Source of the DNA: Synechococcus sp. SynAce01 | GTDB taxonomy: Bacteria > Cyanobacteriota > Cyanobacteriia > PCC-6307 > Cyanobiaceae | Reading direction: 5' to 3' | DNA length: 64,000 bases | Assembly (NCBI RefSeq): GCF_001885215.1 | Contig: NZ_CP018091.1 | Coordinates: 2,356,001-2,420,000 of the forward strand | Shown: positions 15,210 through 21,675 of the stretch, piece after piece | How positions within the stretch are numbered: position 1 is the stretch's first letter | How the letters are laid out: each line of letters opens with the position of its first letter | Position numbers and translations under genes: made by a program | Notes under the pieces: model-generated | The model's input: only the letters and a program-made list of their open reading frames with translations | The model's database searches: none | What the model was told of the DNA's origin: nothing

Positions 15210-15393
15210 TGACTTCTGCGGGGCATGCGCCCAAACCGCCCATGAAGCGTAGGGCTGCTGCCGAGCTGGGATTGCAGCGTGGAGGCCGCCAGGCACAACC
15301 AAGTGATGGCGAGAAGAGACTTACGAAGTGTGAGGTGGATGGCTTTTATTGGACAGATCTGGCCCCTGTCATCGTTAACCTCGGGCGGGAGGG

Positions 15394-16251
15394 TCAGGGT
15401 TCAATTTGATTGTAGACCTCATTGGGAGTTTTGCCACCCAATGAGCTATGGGGTCTTACATGGCAGTACCTCCATAGGAATCGGGACAAGCTGATTTCAG
15501 CTTCCCAGCCATCGCTGTAGGCGCGCAGGTACACCTCCTCATATTTGACTGTCCTCCATAGTCTCTCCACCAGGATGTTGTCGTAACAGCGTCCTCTACC
15601 AGACCAGCTGATCTTGATCTCCTCTGTCTTGAGCCTTGCCACGAAGTCACCGGAGGTGAACTGACACCCCTGATCGGAGTGGAACATCTGTGGCTTTCGC
15701 CCACCGGTAAGAGCAATCTCCAATGCCTCCAGGCAGAATTCCATGTCAAGGCTGTTGGAAAGTTTCCAGCTGAGTACATGCCGGGAGAACAGATCCACAA
15801 CGGCCACCAGGTAGAGGAAGCCCTTCCGCAATGGGATATAGGTAATATCTGTTGCCCAAACCTGATCCACTTCCGTGACCTCCTTGAGGTCCACCAGGCA
15901 TGGAAAGCGCTCCGATGGCTCACCTGGCACTGTGGTGCGTGGCTTCTGGTAGATGGCCCGTAAACCCATGCGGCGCATGAGGTTTCGGACACGGTCACGG
16001 CTGATCGGGATCCCTTCTCGGGCCAAATACTGAACCATCCGACGGCTTCCAGAGGTTGGATCCTCCAAATACAGCGCATCGATCCTGGCCATGATCCCCA
16101 GGGTGGATTCAGGCACAGGGATGGGCTTGTAGTACAGCGTGGATCTGGGCAGCCCCAGGAGCTCGCACTGACGGCTGATCGTGATTTCTCGTTGGTCGTG
16201 ATCGACCAGCTTTCGCAATTCACGGGCATCAGAGCAGCTGTGACTTTTTTT
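15394..16251 (-). CDS. IS3-family transposase OrfB (DDE integrase domain)
   Basis: OrfB is read mainly as the C-terminal part of a frameshifted OrfAB fusion; the 5' coordinate marks the slippery A-tract. A short HTH_21 region (ISRQCELLGLPRSTLYY) is followed by the rve integrase core. The catalytic triad is visible as WATDITYIPL (first Asp), HSDQGCQF (second Asp) and YDNILVERLWRTVK (Glu). The C-terminus ends HVRPHSSLGGKTPNEVY, as is usual in the family. The reading frame has no internal stops, so the element may still be active. Confidence 0.9.
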   Translation of the reverse strand, partial: KKSHSCSDARELRKLVDHDQREITISRQCELLGLPRSTLYYKPIPVPESTLGIMARIDALYLEDPTSGSRRMVQYLAREGIPISRDRVRNLMRRMGLRAIYQKPRTTVPGEPSERFPCLVDLKEVTEVDQVWATDITYIPLRKGFLYLVAVVDLFSRHVLSWKLSNSLDMEFCLEALEIALTGGRKPQMFHSDQGCQFTSGDFVARLKTEEIKISWSGRGRCYDNILVERLWRTVKYEEVYLRAYSDGWEAEISLSRFLWRYCHVRPHSSLGGKTPNEVYNQIEP

Positions 16252-16516
16252 TAAGCCACTCCAGTTCCATCTGGAGCTTGCCAATCTGCTGGAACAGTTC
16301 GCCTTCCTTGGCCTGGCTCTCGTCTTTGCCTTGAGCCTTTTTGCCCTTGGCGAAAAGCTCACTGGCTCCTTCCAGGAGCTGCTTCTTCCATTGGCTCACC
16401 TGTATCGGGTGCACCGCGTGGTCTGCAGCGATCTCCTGGAGCGTCCTGCGGCCACTGATCGCTTCCATGGCGACCTTGGACTTGAATTCTGGGCTGTGGG
16501 TACGGCGTTTGCTCAT
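16229..16516 (-). CDS. IS3-family transposase OrfA
   Basis: This 95-residue protein has the helix-turn-helix HSPEFKSKVAMEAISGRRTL...VHPIQVSQWKK, then a leucine-rich coiled coil ending GKLQMELEWLKKK. It binds the IS ends and supplies the N-terminal part of the OrfAB fusion transposase. The last codons run over an eight-base A-tract (16252-16245, minus strand) in the context CTTAAAAAAAAGTC. This is a classic -1 frameshift site that joins OrfA to OrfB. Confidence 0.9.
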   Translation of the reverse strand: MSKRRTHSPEFKSKVAMEAISGRRTLQEIAADHAVHPIQVSQWKKQLLEGASELFAKGKKAQGKDESQAKEGELFQQIGKLQMELEWLKKKSQLL

Positions 16517-16577
16517 CGGTAGGAGCCCCTTTCAGGGGCGGTGCCCCGCCTCAAAGGTTAACGATGGGACCTGTCCA

Positions 16578-16610
16578 GAAAACCCAGACCACCTCAGTGG
16601 CTCGGTTTTC
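16578..16610. repeat. Hairpin abutting the IS3 right end
   Basis: GAAAACC (16578-16584) pairs with GGTTTTC (16604-16610), and inside it CCAC (16589-16592) pairs with GTGG (16597-16600) around loop CTCA. The hairpin starts at the base next to the IS end. It may be an old terminator or an insertion target; nothing more can be said. Confidence 0.5.
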
Positions 16611-16618
16611 CAGAGTCT

Positions 16619-16725
16619 CCTTAACGCATGGCCAACCCGCCCAATACCGCGCTACCCCATGACTATAACTTGTCTTGTGAACTCGGTGCGCGGTATTGGG
16701 TCGGCGTTTAGCCAATTGTTATGTG
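16619..16725 (-). other. Integron attC-like site
   Basis: Read on the minus strand this roughly 105-base stretch begins ACATAACAATTGGCTAAACG and ends CATGCGTTAAGG. It contains a perfect 13-bp inverted repeat, CCCAATACCGCGC (16640-16652) against GCGCGGTATTGGG (16688-16700). The arms extend imperfectly outward to TAAC/GTTA, giving a long cruciform with a central loop of about 35 bases. Core sites match the attC rules with one mismatch each: ACATAAC against RYYYAAC and GTTAAGG against GTTRRRY. The 5' part resembles the well-known cassette start TAACAATTCGTTCAAGC. The rest of the 16578-16906 gap shows no gene. No integrase gene is in the window. Confidence 0.5.
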
Positions 16726-16906
16726 CGATTTTGAATACGACGTTCATAAGAAACATCCAACGGCCGCTTCGGACCCAGAGCCGGCAGCCGCGCGTTCGTT
16801 GCGATCGGCGAGGTGGTCCTAGTCTAAAGCCACCCCGGGTGAAATCGTCGAGCGGCAGGAGTCGGCCGAGAGTGGCTCCAGCAATCGCCGCTCCCCGCGG
16901 ATGGCA

Positions 16907-18601
16907 CTAAGCACGAAGTTTAGCGACAAATCTTTTGACGATTGCTTCAACGTCGTCAATCTCGTCAAACCTCACGATGAGCATCGGGATTCCCTTCTCT
17001 CGGCAGTAACGCTCCTTGATCTGATCGCGTTTGCTGACTGGGGCAGGATCGGACTCCCCCTTCCCAAAGTCAACCGGCCAAAAGTGTTGCTCGCCGTGGA
17101 ATTCGATGACGCCACGGTCTCCCACGAAGAAGTCAAAGGGCAGCTCGTTAACGTTCCGGCAATCGGGGAATCGCTTCTGTTGCTCAAACCCAACGCCTAA
17201 GCGCTTCAGCACCTGCTCGACCCGGAACTCGCCGCGAGACTGGCGGCAGATCGGACATCCACTTCTTCCGAGATGATGGGAGGCTCGTTGGTGAAACGGA
17301 CCGTGGTACGGGCAATGGATTTCGACATTGTCATTGGCACGGAGATACCTCGTGCGGCTGTAATCGTAAAGATCGCCGTGGACACCTCGTGCTTTCTCGA
17401 TGAATTCCTCGGTCGTTAGCCTGCGGGAACCGCCGCAATCGGGGCACCCGGACCGCAGATGGTTCTTGGCCTTCTGGCGGAATCGACCATGAATAGGGCA
17501 GATGATTGTGATCTCTGAGTCGATAGAATCAAAAGCAACCTCGGAATAATCAAATTTGCCGTCGTGCTTCTCGGTGGCTTCCTCAATGAAGGTGGCCATA
17601 TCAGTTTTCCCCCGTCCGTGGCATTTTGAGCAGCCCTCGTAACCTATCAGATGTGAGTGCGGTCGTTGCATGAAATCCCCGTGATCGCGGCAGGTGATGA
17701 TGACCTTCTCATTGTTGGACACGTAGTCAACCTTCGCGTAGTAGTACTTGTCGCCCCAGACCTCGCGTGCCTCGGTGATGAAGTCTTCGGTGGTGCGAGG
17801 AGCGACGCCCGCACAGTCCGGGCAGCCGTGTCCGTGTAGGTGGGATTTGGCCTCTTGCTCAAAAGCGCCGTGGGTCGGACAGAAAATTTCGACCGGCAGC
17901 TTGTTGCCGCGGTACTTCACAAGGCTGTAATCGTATCGGTCGGCGTGAATAACACGAGCCTCTGCAACGAACTGCTCGGTCGTTTTTCGGCTTGCCCGCA
18001 CCTTGCACTTCGGACACCCTTGCGGGTTGGTCTTGCTCAGATGATTGGAGGGTGACTTTTGGAAATCCCCGTGCTTACTGCAGGTGATCGTCACCGGGTT
18101 CTGATATCCCGTGTACTCAACCTTATCGTACGAGTACCGGTCGCCGTGGATGACGATCGCCTTGCGGATAAATTCCCCCTTGCTCATCCGACTACTCTCA
18201 TTCCGTTCGAGCCGGGCGCACTCCGGACATCCCTGCTTGCGGCCACTAGTGTGCTTGCAGGGAGCGATGTGAAAGTCGCCGTGTTCTTGGCAGGTGACGG
18301 TGACAGCCGTCTTTGAGTTGACGTAATGGGTCTTGTCGTAGCCGTACCGGTCGCCGTGGATCGCCTTTGCCTCTTTCACGAAGTCAGCGGTCGTCTTCTT
18401 GCCGGTGCCGCCGCACTTTGGGCAACCGTACTTCGAGCGCAGGTGAAGGTGTGGAAGCTGGGTGAAATAGCCGTGATCGGGGCAGTAAATCTCGACAGGC
18501 TCTTTGGAGTGAATGAACCCGACCCGGTCGTACCCAAACTTGCCTCCGAATTTCGCGGTTGCTCGCTCTTTAAACTCTGCGATTGAAAGACGCTTGGACA
18601 T
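16907..18601 (-). CDS. Seven-repeat zinc-ribbon protein (DUF723-like) with C-terminal nuclease-like domain
   Basis: The 564-residue protein consists of seven repeats of about 62-68 residues. Each has the pattern F..EA..IHGDRYDYS.V.Y, then V.I.C..HG.F, then HL...GCP.C. Each repeat could bind one zinc through the C..H and CxxC ligands. The last 110 residues differ. They contain LPFDFF, then GVIEFHGEQHF, then RDQIKERYCREKGIPMLIVRF, an arrangement seen in phage and mobile endonuclease-like proteins of the PD-(D/E)XK/Vsr-like kind; the usual Asp of the IEYDG motif is His here. The start is ATG 18601; the frame is open 34 codons further. Base composition is clearly less GC-rich than the flanking hydrogenase genes. 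It may be an integron cassette gene or a homing-type element; the function is unknown. Confidence 0.72.
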   Translation of the reverse strand: MSKRLSIAEFKERATAKFGGKFGYDRVGFIHSKEPVEIYCPDHGYFTQLPHLHLRSKYGCPKCGGTGKKTTADFVKEAKAIHGDRYGYDKTHYVNSKTAVTVTCQEHGDFHIAPCKHTSGRKQGCPECARLERNESSRMSKGEFIRKAIVIHGDRYSYDKVEYTGYQNPVTITCSKHGDFQKSPSNHLSKTNPQGCPKCKVRASRKTTEQFVAEARVIHADRYDYSLVKYRGNKLPVEIFCPTHGAFEQEAKSHLHGHGCPDCAGVAPRTTEDFITEAREVWGDKYYYAKVDYVSNNEKVIITCRDHGDFMQRPHSHLIGYEGCSKCHGRGKTDMATFIEEATEKHDGKFDYSEVAFDSIDSEITIICPIHGRFRQKAKNHLRSGCPDCGGSRRLTTEEFIEKARGVHGDLYDYSRTRYLRANDNVEIHCPYHGPFHQRASHHLGRSGCPICRQSRGEFRVEQVLKRLGVGFEQQKRFPDCRNVNELPFDFFVGDRGVIEFHGEQHFWPVDFGKGESDPAPVSKRDQIKERYCREKGIPMLIVRFDEIDDVEAIVKRFVAKLRA

Positions 18602-18817
18602 CGTGGGTGGCTCGGCTTCGTAAATCCCCCTAAAGCTGGTAAAGCTGAGGGGCAATACGGTCTTGCGTGGGACGAAAATCAAGGAAGTCTGGGCATCCTT
18701 CATTAGCTATCGAAAGTAGTTTACACTTTTTCGGCCAAAAAAAATAAGGCAATAGGACTAGAAGGCCATCAACGATAGCCAAAAAGATCGTCGGGTTTGA
18801 AAAAGCTGCTTCTTGTT

Positions 18818-20407
18818 CTACGAAGCAAGAAGTAATTCTGGATCTTTCTCACCAAGAATGTCGAACAGGATGGAAATCCAGTCTTTCACTTGCGTTTTTC
18901 CGGTCAGCAGCTCCATGGGCGTTTTGTTCTTTCTTACGCCGTCACAATAACGCCGATGGTTGTGATAGTGCATAATCAGATTGAGCAGCTCTTGCGTGAC
19001 GTGATTCTTGGTGGTGTTTAAATACGGCCGGATAATGGAATTGATACACTCGACCAGCGCCGAACTCTGGACAATGGTGTCGAGCTTGGCATAGACGGCT
19101 TCCTGAACATCTCCCAAGTTCTCCGGATGTAGGCCCTCGGCGATCTCCAGGCAAAATTGTTCTTGCTCTTGGGCCTTCTTTTTCCGCTCGGAATTCTTGA
19201 CCTTCCTGAAAACCTTGCCCCATTGCCAAGCGATACAGTACGCCTTCAGGCTTTCATCGTCGATCGGCAGCGCTTTGCACGCGTTGACGACCTCCGCAGC
19301 AACATCCAAGTAATGGAACAAGTCCGGCAAGGCGCGCCTGATTTTTTGCACCGCTGCGGTGAGGCGGTTGTGGTTTAGTTCCTCCAAGAGCGCAAGGCCG
19401 GCCGTGAGGCCTGCTTCGGCCTGTTGTCGATCACGCAGGTTGCCGTTGACGTCGAACACATTGAGCTCGCCGAGAACGCAACGATAGAGGTAGCTGAAAT
19501 CATCGTACAGCGTGACGGCCTTGTTGGCGGCGGCGACGGATTTCTCCCAAGCGAGCCTGCGCTGTTCGCGCACGTGAACGCTTTTTGCTGAAGTGAGTTT
19601 TCTTTCGCACGCATGCTCCACCCCGATCGCCTTGTAGGCGCCTGTTTCGAGGCTATGTGCCCAGTTCCCGAGCCGGTGGGCAACCGCATGGTAGGTATCG
19701 CTCTGGCGCACGACATCACTCAGGGCCTCGGCATGGCCCGCGCGGATTCCCTGACCGTCATCGGAAACCAAATAGACCGCTTCCAGCCCGTTGTCATGGA
19801 GGCACTCAAAATGTCGTTTCCAATCTTCTGCTTTCCGACTCTCGCTCAACTCGATGCGGAGAATCGCGCTACTAACGGGATCCACGGACACCAGGATCGG
19901 TATGGTTTTGGAAAAGATCTCATCGCTGGCAAACACCAGATAGCGGATGACGCCGTTTTCCGTGGAGAGCGTCGTCGGCAAGCAGCCGCCGATACGTGAG
20001 AGGAGTTGGCTGATGGAGCCAGTAGAAGACGATTCAAATGCGAATCGGCGCATGACCGTTGAGATGGCGCCGATACTGCTGCATGCCTCCATGCGCAGTG
20101 ACAGCATCATCGCGATGGCTTGTTCGCGTGACGATGAAGAGGGACCACACCCCGCCGCCTCCCCGAAAAGAAACTGCCCGGCTTCTTTTAGCGTCGCGGC
20201 AAGTGAATAGACAAAAGGCCTGGATACGTCATGTTCATTTGCCAGCTTGGTTATCGTTCCCCAAATACCGTTCATCATGGCATGAAGCGCTTCTGCGCCT
20301 ATCGCCAAGCGTACGCTGTTGGTAAGATCGGCGCGACGGGTGAAGCGTCTTCTTTGAAATTGGTCTTCGAGCGAGAGCTGACGATCTTCTGATTTTGGCA
20401 ATACCAT
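18818..20407 (-). CDS. Unassigned DDE-type transposase
   Basis: This 529-residue protein has an N-terminal HTH-like region (TKLANEHDVSRPFVYSLAATL). It then shows spaced acidic motifs that fit a DDE catalytic core: SDEIF...ILVSVDP (about 160-173), LVSDDGQG (about 211) and SSALVECINSIIRPYL (about 433). The tail HYHNHRRYCDGVRKNKTPMELL matches the ends of many transposases. I could not place it in a named IS family. Possible short terminal repeats TTACAC are seen at 18721-18726 and, inverted, at 20548-20553 (GTGTAA), but they are too short to define the element. ATG 20407 was chosen over a TTG five codons upstream. Confidence 0.65.
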   Translation of the reverse strand: MVLPKSEDRQLSLEDQFQRRRFTRRADLTNSVRLAIGAEALHAMMNGIWGTITKLANEHDVSRPFVYSLAATLKEAGQFLFGEAAGCGPSSSSREQAIAMMLSLRMEACSSIGAISTVMRRFAFESSSTGSISQLLSRIGGCLPTTLSTENGVIRYLVFASDEIFSKTIPILVSVDPVSSAILRIELSESRKAEDWKRHFECLHDNGLEAVYLVSDDGQGIRAGHAEALSDVVRQSDTYHAVAHRLGNWAHSLETGAYKAIGVEHACERKLTSAKSVHVREQRRLAWEKSVAAANKAVTLYDDFSYLYRCVLGELNVFDVNGNLRDRQQAEAGLTAGLALLEELNHNRLTAAVQKIRRALPDLFHYLDVAAEVVNACKALPIDDESLKAYCIAWQWGKVFRKVKNSERKKKAQEQEQFCLEIAEGLHPENLGDVQEAVYAKLDTIVQSSALVECINSIIRPYLNTTKNHVTQELLNLIMHYHNHRRYCDGVRKNKTPMELLTGKTQVKDWISILFDILGEKDPELLLAS

Positions 20408-21044
20408 GACTACAAACCTCAATGCACAGTGAGCTGGGAGAAATTTCCCATCGCTTATACAAGAAGATGCGTCACTTGTCTAGGTCATGTCTTATTCGCC
20501 CATCGCCGATATCAGGTCTAATGAATGGTTGCCCATCCTACTCCAAGGTGTAAAGTGAGAGATGAAGGATGCCGAAGTCTGACCCAAGATACGTAATGCT
20601 AGTGGCTGACCATCTCTGAAGCACATAACGCTAATTGGGCGGATCCGCATAAAATCCCCCTCCTGATCCTATTAGAAGAATAAAGCCGGGGATGCCAGCT
20701 GGCAACATGGCAAGAACCCTGTCTTGTCCAGGGTTTTCTGAATACCTCCGCACGATCCAGGCATCTTATGCGGGTCCGCATAACACTGTTAGTATCGATA
20801 CAAAATCGCGATCCCGAGCCTCTGGGCCATGGCCTGGCCTCAGTCAAAAAACCCGCAACTTGGTGCTTTAGCCATATAGAAACAGGGCCGGAAGCGTCCA
20901 GTTTTGCTGTTTTCCCGACTGAATCTACTGCTTTTATTGCTTGCAATGGCTCGATGTAGCGCGCAGAAAGTAGTATAAGACCTGATCATGCCTGATCGGC
21001 GAAGTAACTTCTGCTTTAGGTTTGTCGATCCTTTGAACTTGACA
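20408..21044. other. Non-coding stretch with inverted repeats
   Basis: No reading frame here looks like a protein, and composition is near 50% GC. The only visible structures are the palindromic pair at 20639-20783 and the possible transposon end near 20550. It separates the unassigned transposase from the broken HNH gene. Confidence 0.6.
20639..20783. repeat. Paired TTATGCGG/CCGCATAA palindromes
   Basis: GCGGATCCGCATAA (20639-20652) and TTATGCGGGTCCGC (20766-20779) are inverted copies with one mismatch. The right copy is itself an 18-base palindrome, TTATGCGG-GT-CCGCATAA (20766-20783). Imperfect similarity continues on both sides: CTAAT/CTAAC outside, and AAATCCCC against AGATGCC inside. 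The arms enclose about 115 bases without an ORF. This could be a decayed non-autonomous element or a pair of tyrosine-recombinase sites. Confidence 0.6.
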
Positions 21045-21637
21045 TTAAGCAGCGTAAGCGAAGCGAACGTCCGTCTTCAAAGTCGTGTTCGGCACCCACC
21101 TCACAGGCCGCAGATCCTTCTCTGGATCAACTTCATACTCGATACCAAGCTCAGCGAGAGGTTTCAGATGGTGAGCATAAATATATCCTTCTGCGAAGAG
21201 TCCGTACTGCTGCCCGAAGTTGAGGCCGCAAACGGAACAGCTGTCCCCATATTTATCGATACAGAGACTTCGCGCCTTGGCGTTCCTTTCGTAAGAGTTC
21301 AACTGGATTCTAGTTGCAGATCCCTCCAAGAGCGGCGTGCTCGATTCGACCTCGCTCGCATCGCTGAAAGCATCGAGACGACCACGTTTGTACACGTCGG
21401 CCAGGATCTCAAAGACCTGCTCCACGACTTCATCGGGGCCTAAGCCCCATTTTTGCCCACACCGGTGTCCCAGGTGAGAATCTTGAGCGTATTATCGGTG
21501 TAGTTTTTGCCCCTATCGGTCGCAGCATGCCATCCGGCCTTGAAGCGACCACGGCGAAGGCTATCCGGGGGATTGCGTTCATCTTTGGCGTAGTCGAGTT
21601 GTCCCAAGAACTCCACAATCTCTCTCGCCTGTTTCAT
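21045..21637 (-). pseudogene. Broken HNH endonuclease gene
   Basis: Two reading frames carry the two parts of one protein. The first (from ATG 21637) reads MKQAREIVEFLGQLDYAKDE...RFKAGWHAATDRGKNYTDNTL and stops at TAG near 21440. The second continues in another frame as WGLGPDEVVEQVFEILADVY. It then has the HNH-type segment CSVCGLNFGQQYG...GYIYAHHLKPLAELG and DLRPVRW. A one-base shift around 21455-21475 separates the frames. In addition the expected CPNCH after DLRPV is missing: the end reads RWVPNTTLK and stops. Two lesions make it a pseudogene. Intact relatives are restriction-like HNH nucleases. Confidence 0.75.
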
Positions 21638-21656
21638 CTCAGCACCTCGTTTGCCG

Positions 21657-21675
21657 AACGACAAATCAAGTCGTT
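21657..21675. repeat. Small palindrome upstream of hypB
   Basis: AACGAC and GTCGTT face each other across AAATCAA, 56 bases before the hypB start and at the edge of the mobile block. It could be an operator, or a leftover of recombination. Nothing else supports a role. Confidence 0.35.

Follow-up and report, generated by a model that had tools for sequence, protein, structure and literature searches.

Synechococcus sp. SynAce01 carries a seven-module zinc-array nuclease of the predicted EDxHD/Vsr type as probable integron cassette cargo

Synechococcus sp. SynAce01 contains a gene whose product joins seven zinc-module repeats to a predicted EDxHD/Vsr-type nuclease domain, and which appears to lie within an integron gene cassette. 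We consider it probable, taking the kind of enzyme and its capture together, that the gene encodes a free-standing DNase of the homing-endonuclease type, from a phage-centred group that combines zinc modules with an EDxHD/Vsr domain, and that it was taken up into an integron cassette as its cargo. It is a known kind of enzyme in an unusual vehicle, and the observation in the earlier note, made from the letters alone, was correct.

The gene is located on the minus strand of the window, by which we mean the whole 64-kb stretch of DNA analysed here, at 16907..18601 (ATG at 18601, stop at 16907). It encodes 564 aa plus a stop codon, exactly where the earlier note had placed an open reading frame, with seven DUF723/CapR-like zinc modules followed by the C-terminal EDxHD/Vsr-type domain. 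An in-frame ATG further upstream, at 18703, would extend the frame to 598 aa. As this codon belongs to the end of a transposon that was inserted later, it was rejected as the start, and 18601 is the better choice. The 564-codon frame is intact, all zinc ligands and catalytic residues are conserved, and the gene is present in a single copy in the genome.

The array spans aa 6-452 (17246..18586, minus). Segmentation of the protein yields seven modules of 62-70 aa each (~65), and a C-x2-H and a C-x2-C pair are found in 7/7 of them, in agreement with the repeat count first seen by eye. Pairwise identity between modules ranges from 26 to 48%, with a mean of 39%. The Pfam profile DUF723, which the earlier note had named, matched the repeats far beyond chance (111.4 bits against a cut-off of 20.9; 1.9e-32; five significant stretches), and DUF4379, a ‘probable treble clef zinc finger’, reached 31.9 bits (cut-off 24.5). 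With scores above the Pfam cut-off and CxxH...CxxC in every repeat, the protein belongs to the DUF723/CapR-type arrays. AlphaFold2 predicts a helix, a β-hairpin and a short helix for each module. The full-length model (pLDDT 85.5) is good per module, with a pTM of 0.33, and the orientation of one module relative to the next is not predicted. Across 651 module copies the ligands and the framework are conserved, whereas module positions 42, 44, 45, 48 and 50 and the loop 23-27 show about the same variability among the modules of one protein as across different proteins. These variable positions would fit, short of proof, residues that set specificity. The modules are candidates for zinc-dependent, specific DNA binding. 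The number seven was discarded as a special feature: it is unremarkable, because relatives with an EDxHD/Vsr-type tail carry between 1 and 9 modules, with a mode of 4.

The tail comprises aa 453-564 (16910..17245, minus). It had been singled out for the stretch FDFF...IEFHGEQHF...RDQIKERYCREKGIPMLI, which is confirmed in the protein, and had been taken for a nuclease-like, perhaps Vsr-like domain. Both guesses are borne out by the predicted fold. An AlphaFold2 model of the C-terminal 231 aa (the last two modules and the tail), built on an alignment of 53 relatives, has a mean pLDDT of 93.8, and Foldseek against the PDB returned as its first match the catalytic domain of I-Bth0305I (3R3P; prob 1.00, E 1.8e-4, TM-score on target 0.69-0.73), which speaks for the fold and not for a residue-by-residue correspondence of E-D-x-H-D. 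The second match was Vsr (1VSR; prob 1.00) and the third an endonuclease-like protein of Neisseria (3HRL). A predicted structure devoid of a nuclease fold would have counted against the earlier reading; a nuclease fold is predicted. Because I-Bth0305I and Vsr are the best fold matches, we assign the tail to the EDxHD/Vsr nucleases on the strength of the model.

Residues D490, E500, G503, Q505, H506, D526 and K529 are invariant in 53 proteins, and S-[RK]-G-E at 455-458, which reads S-R-G-E here, is nearly so. Position 502 is His in the SynAce01 protein, and among 93 distinct proteins it is Asp in 84, His in 7 and Asn in 2, so that activity could be altered. Vsr also has His-Gly at the equivalent position. 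Neither phmmer nor a profile search found a relevant PDB chain for the nuclease, and no Pfam nuclease model rose above its cut-off on the tail, where DUF2726 alone came near (23.4 bits, cut-off 24.7). Among the PHROG families, the protein matched phage ‘endonuclease’ families at 8e-138 and 3.5e-115, and the tail a ‘homing endonuclease’ family at 4e-20. PHROG 559 is labelled ‘HNH endonuclease’; an HNH identity of the tail was rejected, as the fold is that of Vsr/EDxHD and no HNH model matched. A GIY-YIG tail was likewise rejected, GIY-YIG being another tail that occurs on such arrays.

How the two halves could work together is suggested by family and fold. Each zinc module, formed by a helix, a CxxH β-hairpin, a short helix and a CxxC pair, would touch a short segment of duplex DNA, and a row of seven modules would define a long, specific target. 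Beside that target, the cluster of acidic, His and Lys residues in the EDxHD/Vsr domain is predicted to break the DNA with the help of a divalent metal. The earlier proposal that the array reads and the tail cuts fits the family, the fold and earlier published cases, cleavage itself being what we infer. Most likely, the nuclease can cut DNA, at a long site that its zinc modules specify. In phage relatives, repair of the break would copy the gene, which is homing. Here mobility would have passed to the integron, and the enzyme, if expressed, would therefore cut invading DNA that carries its old, probably phage, target, and would otherwise lie idle.

The evidence for the cassette lies on both sides of the gene. 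An attC-like site had been suspected nearby, and it proved real by a hairpin scan, by its single-strand fold and by its match to the cassette start. This site, attC1 (16619..16724, minus), is the sole match of the scan in the window and lies immediately 3' of the nuclease gene, with which it shares its strand. It consists of an R'' box GCACATAAC (16726-16718), a perfect 13-bp inner stem (16640-16652/16688-16700) and an R' box GCGTTAAGG, and its ssDNA fold has z = -5.67. In random sequence, the scan gives ~30 matches/Mb at a loose setting and ~4/Mb at the strength of attC1, and single matches elsewhere therefore mean little.

An integron cassette begins with a sequence (G^TTRRRY) that is the complement of the R'' box in its own attC. 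Such a start is found here: after the R' box of a second site, attC2, a candidate start G^TTATGTGC (20629-20621, minus) is the reverse complement of the R'' box of attC1 in 9/9 positions, and this 9-mer occurs at only two places in the window, the start and the R'' box itself. In three resident cassettes of the SynAce01 genome that served as controls, complementarity of start and R'' was 7/7, 7/7 and 6/7. AttC2 (20623..20794, minus; R'' TACTAAC, R' GCGTTATGTGC) was recognised by eye and missed by the scan; at ~170 nt it is long, its arms (20639-20658/20760-20779) are 85% complementary, and it is probably the attC of the preceding cassette. The cassette would thus extend over 16625..20628 (minus), ~2.1 kb when the transposon that entered later and one copy of its target site duplication are subtracted. 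The earlier suggestion of a cassette-borne element is strongly supported by this pair of sites and the 9/9 start.

The genome has an integron machinery of its own. An intact integron integrase (401 bits; G000:C1, 183055-183924) lies beside photolyase-like genes, and broken copies are present at 329126 and 1244822. Resident-type attCs number 21 at E<0.01, with clusters at 166320-177487, 1071945-1074731, 1193504-1196703, 1240973-1243579, 1864390 and 2116498-2120279 of the same contig; intI and cassettes share a strand in at least two of them. A covariance model built from 7 of these attCs gave attC1 8.7 bits at E 0.65, the best score of the stretch but a weak one, and was dropped as support; a genome-wide search with it returned no match at attC1. 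Judged by its sequence, attC1 is of another class than the resident attCs, and the cassette therefore probably came from another integron. At 80 bacterial and 80 viral loci that encode relatives, no attC-like site was found immediately downstream of the gene, so a recurrent association of the nuclease family with attCs was rejected. With an attC of a different type in the window and relatives that have none, we regard the cassette as an isolated single capture; cassette-borne homing-type nucleases would not, on present evidence, make up a class. A search of titles and abstracts turned up no paper in which an integron cassette carries a homing-type nuclease.

Together with a second probable cassette, the nuclease cassette appears to have been inserted between hypA and hypB. 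The two genes are separated by ~7.5 kb here, compared with ~200 bp in the congener G001. For most of its length the insert has a GC content of ~0.55-0.58 against 0.65-0.73 around it, and, apart from an O-methyltransferase gene, it looks foreign. The O-methyltransferase adjoins hypA and has 70%-identical homologues in congeners; it may be host DNA, and as far as tested it was rejected as a further cassette, given these copies and the lack of an attC after the gene. A second hypA-like copy (G000:C1:135428-135763) is 77% identical and contains one in-frame stop. Phycobilisome genes mark the genome as that of a cyanobacterium.

Mobile elements have since entered the cassette and its surroundings, and the transposases reported by the earlier note are real. 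A Mutator/IS256-like transposon (18692..20573, minus; transposase CDS 18818-20422) with perfect 12-bp terminal inverted repeats GGCATCCTTCAT and an 8-bp target site duplication GAAGTCTG at 18684-18691 and 20574-20581 splits the leader of the cassette at a point 90 bp 5' of the nuclease start codon. Since it lies between the cassette start and the start codon, expression may be lost or changed. Downstream of the cassette is an IS3-family element (15331..16596, minus; target site duplication GTG) with several copies elsewhere in the genome. Between it and attC1, ~25 bp GGAGACTCTGGAAAACCGAG (16600-16624) recur at ~133 kb in the SynAce01 genome and at two loci of G363, a member of the family, upstream of an apparent IS5-type transposase start. 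These letters are probably the leftover end of an insertion sequence, seemingly of IS5 type, at a TTAA site that touches the R' box of attC1. On the 5' side of attC2, two short frames (21045-21664, minus) resemble by eye a broken HNH restriction-type gene (CSVCG...HHLKPL...DPEKDLRPV). A dead HNH nuclease had been called at 21045-21425; the likeness holds on inspection, but no Pfam or NCBIfam model supports it.

Relatives of the nuclease are frequent in phages. They occur in 1044/50,697 phage records (~2%), all at < 60% identity, and also in some plasmids and bacterial contigs. Several phage copies adjoin core genes, such as those for a tail fibre or tail protein, RecA/SSB or tail chaperones, or follow the major capsid gene. 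Free-standing homing endonuclease genes usually stand between core phage genes in this way. Similar arrays are also joined to GIY-YIG/T5orf172 tails, and several of the closest module matches from phages and plasmids are GIY-YIG or T5orf172 proteins. A strong match was absent from the other 385 of 386 genomes sampled in the phylum, and neither the genus nor the family yielded a strong relative. An approximate tree places the protein, with weak support (81/86), together with a Bacteroidota homologue; two actinobacterial chromosomal ones are next to it, and the position is not clearly within a phage clade. Two bacterial relatives have AbiEii-type genes in their vicinity: one is a GIY-YIG version and lies on a Cupriavidus plasmid (L069), the other is a Bacteroidota EDxHD version (L086). 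The homing role is suggested as ancestry by the PHROG labels and the phage insertion contexts. In this respect the earlier idea of a homing element stands for ancestry and mechanism; as to present behaviour, nothing indicates homing by the SynAce01 copy.

What the gene does today can be read in several ways, and since these readings are nested within the preferred explanation, the likelihoods that we give them need not sum to one. It is quite conceivable, if a little short of an even chance, that a phage-type homing endonuclease gene was caught in a cassette by chance and is now an unexpressed selfish passenger or relic that is being broken up by insertion sequences. The Mutator-like transposon in the leader, the IS3 and the IS5-type end just downstream, the degraded look of a neighbouring frame, and the single genomic copy without counterpart in relatives all point that way; an intact frame of 564 codons, with every zinc ligand and catalytic residue conserved, does not. 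That same frame and catalytic set would suit a former homing endonuclease retained by the host to cut phage genomes that bear its target, a refinement of function and not a different molecule, which we hold to be rather unlikely. Integron cassettes often carry defence genes, ~10% of the V. cholerae integron cassettes gave protection from phage when expressed (PMC12409362), related zinc-module proteins of phages and satellites act in phage-satellite conflict (PMC10448857), and a few bacterial relatives are found near AbiEii or MkoA-like genes. However, the genus and family have no strong relative, and no PADLOC model matches the protein (none at E<1), so the defence role offered by the earlier note finds no place among the systems modelled there. 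A broader scheme, in which phage homing endonucleases would be taken up by integrons and become portable nucleases directed against phages, with the zinc array picking the phage genome and the cassette replacing the lost homing mobility, strikes us as doubtful.

Two further readings fare worse. The modules could bind DNA while the tail no longer cuts, as in the satellite repressor CapR, to which the zinc modules are related (PMC10448857). The replacement of the usual Asp at position 502 would be in keeping with such a regulator, but the invariant nuclease residues D490, E500, Q505, H506, D526 and K529 are all kept, and we deem this very improbable. That the gene serves the integron itself as an active homing element, directed against attC or cassette sequences, is barely credible: it does sit in a cassette, but the cassette borders alone account for its movement, and 0/80 bacterial loci with relatives have a same-strand attC-like site immediately 3' of it. 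Our preferred explanation remains a homing-type nuclease captured as cassette cargo.

This matters beyond a single locus. The group of enzymes is large and uncharacterised. The ‘QxPxxHLxGxGC’ stretch, with its conserved frame and very variable positions, hints that a single module may read a few base pairs; if so, the family could be developed into a DNA-binding scaffold that can be reprogrammed. Whether hosts repurpose homing endonucleases could also be tested cleanly on a copy enclosed in an integron cassette.

Comparing the nuclease with characterised enzymes, the catalytic domain shares its fold with that of I-Bth0305I (3R3P; prob 1.00, TM-score ~0.7 on target), although no sequence match between them was detected. 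I-Bth0305I belongs to a group I intron and, to our knowledge, carries no DUF723 array. Vsr (1VSR) has the same nuclease fold (prob 1.00) and differs in being a single-domain mismatch-repair enzyme without a zinc-module array. Similar repeated zinc modules with another catalytic domain are found in T5orf172/GIY-YIG homing endonucleases with CapR, DUF723 or DUF4397 modules (PMC10448857). Repeated CapR/DUF723/DUF4397 modules occur in phage homing endonuclease genes and have been argued to be apt for a rapid diversification of target recognition, and the satellite repressor CapR has a DNA-binding module in common with homing endonucleases (PMC10448857).

The closest precedent is provided by four phage group II introns whose proteins have the layout of zinc modules plus an EDxHD/Vsr-like nuclease (PMC12350094, Nucleic Acids Res. 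2025). The CapR/DUF4379/DUF723-like plus EDxHD/Vsr layout was there called a large unrecognised outgroup of EDxHD/Vsr homing endonucleases, with thousands of relatives said to exist (PMC12350094), and the ‘function unknown’ of the earlier note was therefore too strong as a claim of novelty. Like the nuclease described here, these enzymes have several ~60-aa zinc modules with the same Pfam relations, followed by an EDxHD/Vsr-like domain of ~100 aa. However, they carry 3-5 modules and reside in phage group II introns, whereas the SynAce01 protein has seven, is encoded without an intron in a bacterial chromosome, and is the probable cargo of an integron cassette. In this packaging it resembles the defence cassettes known from chromosomal and mobile integrons, which likewise hold a single-gene cargo between attC sites (PMC12409362), with the difference that no defence activity is known for the nuclease cassette. 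What is new is thus the packaging in an integron cassette, around an enzyme architecture that has already been described.
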